Assembly: GCA_016781845.1 (NCBI GenBank)
Contig: JADDPP010000473.1
Coordinates: 1-37,356, forward strand
Source: Rubrobacter sp.
Lineage (GTDB): Bacteria > Chloroflexota > Chloroflexia > Thermobaculales > Thermobaculaceae
Length of the DNA stretch: 37,356 nucleotides
Reading direction: 5' to 3'
The translations under genes and the position numbers were made by a program. Below, piece after piece: positions 6,029 to 7,078 of this stretch. Under the pieces are notes generated by a model, which saw nothing but the letters and a program-made list of their open reading frames with translations, ran no database searches and was not told the DNA's origin. The first letter of the stretch is position 1. The number at the start of each line of letters is the position of its first letter.

Positions 6029-7078
6029 ATGATGACATCGTTGCCCACAAAACAGGTCGGACGAACGGACATCCACGTTCCCGTGCTCGGGCTGGGCGGG
6101 GCGCCGCTGGCTGGCCTGTACGAGCCGGTGGCCGAGGGGCAGGCCCTCCAGACCGTTCATTTCTGCCTCTCGCACGGTATAAACTTCTTCGATACTGCGC
6201 CTTTCTACAGCGCGGGTCTGAGCGAGCGGCGCATCGGGAAGGCACTTGCGGACGTACCGCGCGACAGCTACGTGCTAAGCACGTAAGCATAAGTATGGAA
6301 CGCTTTTCCCGGTAGAAGCCTATGAACCGCGTCACCTTCCGTCTACCAGAAGGATGCCCTACTTATTAACAGGTGCTTAGCTACGAAGGTCGGGCGAATC
6401 GTCGAGCCGGACGGCAGCGTCCACTTCAACTTCAGCCGCGACGGGGTGCTGCGCAGCTTCGAGGAGAGCCTGCAGCGCCTCGGCTTGGAGCGGGTGGACA
6501 TCCTGCACATCCACGACCCCGACGAATACTACCGCGAGGCTCTCGACGTAGTGTTCCCTGTGCTGGCCGACCTGCGTCGGCAGGGTGTCATCAGAGCCGT
6601 GGGCGCGGGCATGAACCAATGGGGGATGCTGGCCGACTTCGCCCGCAACGCCGACTTCGATTGCTTCCTGCTCGCGGGCCGTTACACCCTGCTCGAGCAA
6701 GGAGCCCTCGACGAGCTGCTGCCGCTGTGCGAGGAGAAGGACATAGGCGTCTTCCTGGGTGGGGTGTTCAACAGCGGCATCCTTGCCACGGGCGCCTCGC
6801 CCGGCGCGAAGTACAACTATGCGGACGCGCCGCCGGAGGTGCTGGAGAAGGTGAGCCGAATCGAGGCAGTATGCGCCCGTCATGACGTGCCGCTTCACGT
6901 GGCGGCGCTGCAGTTTCCGCTCGCTCACCCGGCCATCAGCTCGCTCGTCGTGGGCGCGCGGTCCACTGAGGAGATGCAGGCGAACATGGCGGCGCTGTGG
7001 ACGGCGATACCCGAGGACCTTTGGGAGGAGCTTCGGGCGGAGGGGCTGCTGCACGAGGAGGCGCCCGTCCCCCTGTAG
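6029..7078 (+). pseudogene. Aldo/keto reductase gene, interrupted (5' part 6029-6286; 3' part resumes at about 6383-7078)
   Basis: 5' part MTSLPTKQVGRTDIHVPVLGLGGAPLAGL...INFFDTAPFYSAGLSERRIGKALADVPRDSYVLST then TAA; 3' part ..KVGRIVEPDGSVHFNFSRDGVLRSFEESLQRLGLERVDILHIHDPDEYY... in the same phase. Whether it is a true pseudogene or is decoded by bypass is unknown. Confidence 0.8.
6274..6381. repeat. Hairpin-forming insert inside the aldo/keto reductase gene
   Basis: GCTAAGCAC (6274-6282)/GTGCTTAGC (6373-6381) 9 bp; ATAAGTA (6289-6295)/TACTTAT (6360-6366) 7 bp; GGTAGA (6311-6316)/TCTACC (6342-6347) 6 bp. Confidence 0.8.

Follow-up and report, generated by a model that had tools for sequence, protein, structure and literature searches.

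A 100-nt TA-targeting MITE as the probable source of an in-frame, stop-containing insert in an aldo/keto reductase gene

How does an aldo/keto reductase gene come to carry, just before the codon of its catalytic lysine, a stop-containing insert after which the gene resumes in the same frame? The gene (6029-7078, + strand) lies in a window of 37,356 nt, which is one contig (C69) of a 3.58-Mb, 502-contig MAG, and is interrupted near 6276-6380. Its 5′ part (MMTSLP...RDSYVL, 6029-6277, + strand) is an open frame whose last codon is the CTA of a CTAG target, while its 3′ part ((L)ATKVGRIVEP...APVPL, 6380-7078, + strand) is intact to the stop, the first host codons 3′ of the insert being A-T-K-V-G-R with K as the catalytic residue. 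PF00248 was matched in both halves by profile search (profile positions 2-67 with E 1.3e-13 for the 5′ part), and the 3′ part is 78% identical over 230 aa to its ortholog in a related genome, G001. The first-pass annotation had correctly calculated that removal of 102 nt restores one reductase frame, and reading of the sequence agreed with it on the in-frame TAA, TAA and TGA. It had explained the insert as a palindromic MITE that had destroyed the gene, as a bypass-like element or as one excised from RNA; our analysis retained the first of these and went against the other two, which that annotation had favoured.

The limits of the insert were set by alignment with uninterrupted orthologs, a check which that annotation had itself proposed. 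The uninterrupted reductase ortholog of G001 (C65) reads TAC GTG CTG GCG ACG AAG GTC (YVL-A-TKV), and once the 102 nt are taken out, the window has TAC GTG CTA GCT ACG AAG GTC, with an identical peptide. G001 has CTGG at the position where we infer the CTAG target of the window, a point against our reading; it gives an empty site for the window at the protein level. A related locus was found in the same genome, where a copy of the element (C115; L033:2411-2516) interrupts a methyltransferase gene in frame, immediately ahead of SAM motif I (LELGCGPG). The methyltransferase ortholog of G005, 83% identical, has an empty site, GCCAGCTT-CTAG-AGCTTGGC, and G001 reads GCCAGCTT-CTA[...]TAG-AGCTGGG at the same point. 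An empty CTAG in one genome against CTA-[100 nt]-TAG in the other means that TA was duplicated.

The element thus delimited in the window is 100 nt long, AGCACGTAAGCATAAGTATGG ... CTACTTATTAACAGGTGCT (6278-6377, + strand), and is flanked by the left TA of the target duplication (6276-6277, + strand, in C-TA-(G)) and by the right one (6378-6379, + strand, in (C)-TA-G), limits common to all four aligned full-length copies. The boundaries first drawn were therefore shifted: AGC-ACG before the stop is element sequence, which leaves the second ACG as the sole host codon of the pair, as seen from both the copy alignment and the uninterrupted orthologs. That the reading frame survives is due to the total of 100 + 2 being divisible by three, a length common to the four aligned copies.

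Six-frame reading revealed stops in all frames of the 100-nt, multi-copy element and no transposase gene. The left terminal inverted repeat (6278-6298, + strand) consists of two blocks, AGCAC - 6 nt - ATAAGTA.GG, common to other copies, and the right one (6357-6377, - strand) was recovered by inverted-repeat search. The palindrome reported at first is real, with 32-nt arms (6274-6305/6350-6381) that are 72% complementary and an outer 9 bp that is perfect, and alignment showed the terminal inverted repeats to be retained in the other full-length copies. Between the repeats lies a central core (6301-6334, + strand) which is near-invariant, the four copies agreeing in 33 of its 34 columns, while the ends of the copies drift to 76% overall identity. 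The centre is here better conserved than the ends, the reverse of most MITEs and in that a point against the MITE reading. The reverse strand of the core reads TPFIGFYREKR.

A search of the insert for further copies, also proposed in the first-pass annotation, was productive both in the same genome and in relatives. Two other genomes of the family carry full-length copies: G001 C115 (96% identical), G006 C79 (81%) and G006 C312 (76%). Together with the window they give four copies of 106 nt each, from C-TA to TA-G, without indels, and in all four the similarity ends outside the limits C-TA-AGCA ... TGCT-TA-G. A fifth full-length family member, also of 106 nt, has a different centre (G001 C111). 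When the core pattern was scanned across 158 genomes of the class and GTDB contigs, it was found only in the own genome, G001 and G006; a scan of IMG/VR for the core and a plasmid search gave none. Loose matches in G008 and G034 were short chance similarities devoid of the element ends and were discarded. In other Chloroflexota, G247 (four), G368 (two) and G216 (one) hold elements of 99-115 nt whose ends read CTAAGC[AG]-N8-WAAGT; they were recognised by pattern only, their centres differ and some lie at contig edges. Together with the G001 C111 member they suggest a wider MITE group with two-block ends.

Within the MAG itself, the left end, CTAAGCACGTAA..., recurs at least seven more times, always at a contig end: BLAST of the insert against the genome detected C486 (48 of 48 nt identical), C354, C25, C347 and C157, and C8 and C195 also carry CTAAGCACGTAA. 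Their position at contig edges is explained by repeats breaking the assembly. The genome has 34 CTAAGCAC sites, and 13 of them fall within 60 nt of a contig end against 1.7% expected, the 13 edge sites taking in four that belong to another type of element, one end of eight bases at C432 and a doubtful site at C63; this clustering is more than chance. At C354 (4779-4804) the same 26-nt end is followed by a different interior (GGCATGGTTC), showing that another element with these ends is present in the genome. Separately, a second repeat with related ends, CTAAGCACATGACAAGAAATAAGTCATTGAAATCAAGCGGCTTGCTG, was observed at four contig ends (C15, C39, C175 and C436), also after C-TA; it may be another MITE or else an autonomous IS.

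The insert is thus short, repeated, devoid of a transposase gene and bounded by terminal inverted repeats and a TA target duplication, the defining features of a MITE. We identify it, with a probability of about 0.95, as a 100-nt TA-targeting MITE, probably of IS630/Tc1-mariner type, in the CTAG of the reductase gene, with a net gain of 102 nt. Its repeat nature, its exact ends, the TA duplication at the CTAG of the related locus, the fixed length of four copies and the uninterrupted orthologs were all established here. The transposase type is suggested by the target (TA in CTAG) and by the end structure: an IS630/Tc1-mariner-type enzyme, supplied in trans, would have inserted the MITE into the TA of CTAG, duplicating TA and leaving the reductase gene 102 nt longer.

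The same kind of MITE could instead be mobilised by another CTAG/TA-targeting transposase family, for example by an IS5-type DDE enzyme, which we regard as unlikely since IS5-type elements usually duplicate 3-4 bases. What speaks for such an enzyme is that terminal repeats scanned at the DDE_3 (IS630-type) genes of seven family genomes yielded no autonomous IS with matching ends: the DDE_3 loci of the family had other terminal repeats or none detected. The MAG, for its part, is fragmented and breaks at these repeats, so that its contigs may lack an autonomous copy; such a partner would carry CTAAGCACGTAAGCATAAGTATGGCA ends (CTAAGCA-N8-WAAGT type). Against another enzyme family stands the exact two-base TA duplication, a hallmark of IS630/Tc1-mariner elements (PMC2170065). 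ISY100 inserts into TA and duplicates it (PMC2170065), and IS630 is described as preferring TA in CTAG (Tenzen and Ohtsubo 1991, as cited in PMC2170065).

The most striking feature of the locus was the pair of in-frame ACG codons, the first directly followed by a stop. This had raised the possibility of programmed translational bypassing, in which the ribosome would take off from ACG 6281-6283 before the TAA, skip the hairpin and land on ACG 6383-6385; the protein predicted in this way would match the ancestral one except for a single A-to-S change. The two codons proved to be a coincidence between the end of the element and a host Thr codon. S-T-stop is supplied by the element, which in this phase always starts (C)TA-AGC-ACG-TAA, so the first ACG lies within it, and the ACG in front of K belongs to the host, whose protein has Thr at this position. 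In the G001 methyltransferase copy the codons before resumption are AAC AGG TGC TTA, followed by GAG, with no ACG among them; matched codons are thus not a property of the element.

The hairpin gave no better support to bypassing. Its fold was not unusual (z-score -1.37, 20 of 200 shuffles folding as well), and the inner 6-bp stem drawn in the first-pass annotation was absent from the consensus fold of the four copies. What recurs in that fold is chiefly the pairing of the terminal repeats, including one base pair in which both partners have changed. The hairpin consists of the two terminal inverted repeats. The same z-score counts against excision from the mRNA as a small intron or self-excising RNA, a reading which could draw on the precise restoration of the frame upon removal and on the strongly conserved centre. 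An Rfam scan of the window matched no known catalytic RNA, the 100-nt element has no self-splicing intron core, 102 nt is too short for a group I or II intron, and the CTAG target duplication at the DNA level points to DNA transposition. We consider RNA excision the least probable of all readings, bypassing being scarcely less improbable.

Bypassing could still appeal to the second mid-gene copy, 96% identical and placed, like that of the window, in the sense orientation and in frame in a conserved gene (just before SAM motif I in G001). CTAG can lie in either of two codon phases in a gene and the element can face either way, so that the sharing of both by this second copy is about a one-in-four event for CTAG insertion in a gene. 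Moreover, several copies sit at stop codons or outside genes, which also argues against bypassing. Three (G006 C79, G006 C312 and the own C354, the last at the end of a tRNA/rRNA uracil-5 methyltransferase-like gene) lie exactly on a TAG stop codon, converted to TAA, and the remaining ones, e.g. C486, are outside long coding frames or not placeable. In its third phase CTAG would hold a stop codon, so that insertion there should be harmless, and CTAG-targeted insertion followed by loss of most harmful copies would explain the mix of sites. We see hardly any likelihood that the element is tolerated in genes through ribosome skipping or RNA processing, with the reductase and the G001 methyltransferase still expressed.

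Compared with the G001 reductase, dN/dS of the interrupted gene was 0.29 for the left part and 0.18 for the right part, values which reflect past constraint only: on this measure the reductase was constrained before the insertion, and activity after it lies outside the reach of dN/dS. The insertion is probably recent, as both gene parts are still open and a 96% identical copy exists in another genus. The gene itself is probably now a recent pseudogene with a truncated, inactive predicted product, because only the two codons AGC and ACG separate the last codon of the gene from a TAA, and the part with the catalytic Lys would not be made.

A striking lead for ribosomal bypassing has proved false, and the case illustrates how a TA-targeting MITE of fixed length automatically preserves the reading frame of the gene that it breaks. 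The results also outline a MITE group in the Thermobaculum lineage, and perhaps in other Chloroflexota, with two-block ends (CTAAGCA-N8-WAAGT), copies on TAG stops and, in one subfamily, a core of unusual conservation. A literature search on bacterial and Chloroflexi IS630 MITEs found no description of this element in open-access papers.

Comparison with known systems places the element among TA-targeting repeats. It resembles the bypass inserts of T4 gene 60 and of Magnusiomyces mitochondria in that a stop closely follows the last codon of the gene, which continues in frame beyond a gap (PMC5009743). In contrast to these, it has no matched take-off and landing codons of its own and no evident nascent-peptide or stem-loop signal; its host is an ordinary bacterium, and its insertions also occur outside genes. 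With IS630 and ISY100 it shares the TA target duplication and, with IS630, the preference for CTAG (PMC2170065, with its reference to Tenzen and Ohtsubo 1991), whereas it lacks a transposase gene and has only ends of ~20 nt and a short core. The Correia/NEMIS elements of Neisseria are similarly short, with terminal inverted repeats, TA at the termini and some copies in genes (PMC2229807), but their sequence and ends are different, and the 107-bp Correia form has gene-fusing open frames where our element has none.

The closest known analogue is RUP, the repeat unit of pneumococcus, a 107-bp element with terminal inverted repeats, TA insertion and stops in six frames, mobilised by IS630-Spn1 (PMC2229807); it is like our element in size and in each of the other three features. 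The partner IS of RUP was proposed from matching ends (PMC2229807), while no partner was found for the present element in the seven family genomes. RUP has further been described as intergenic and also inside IS elements (PMC2229807), whereas two of the five full-length family copies described here lie mid-gene in ordinary genes and three sites fall on stop codons.
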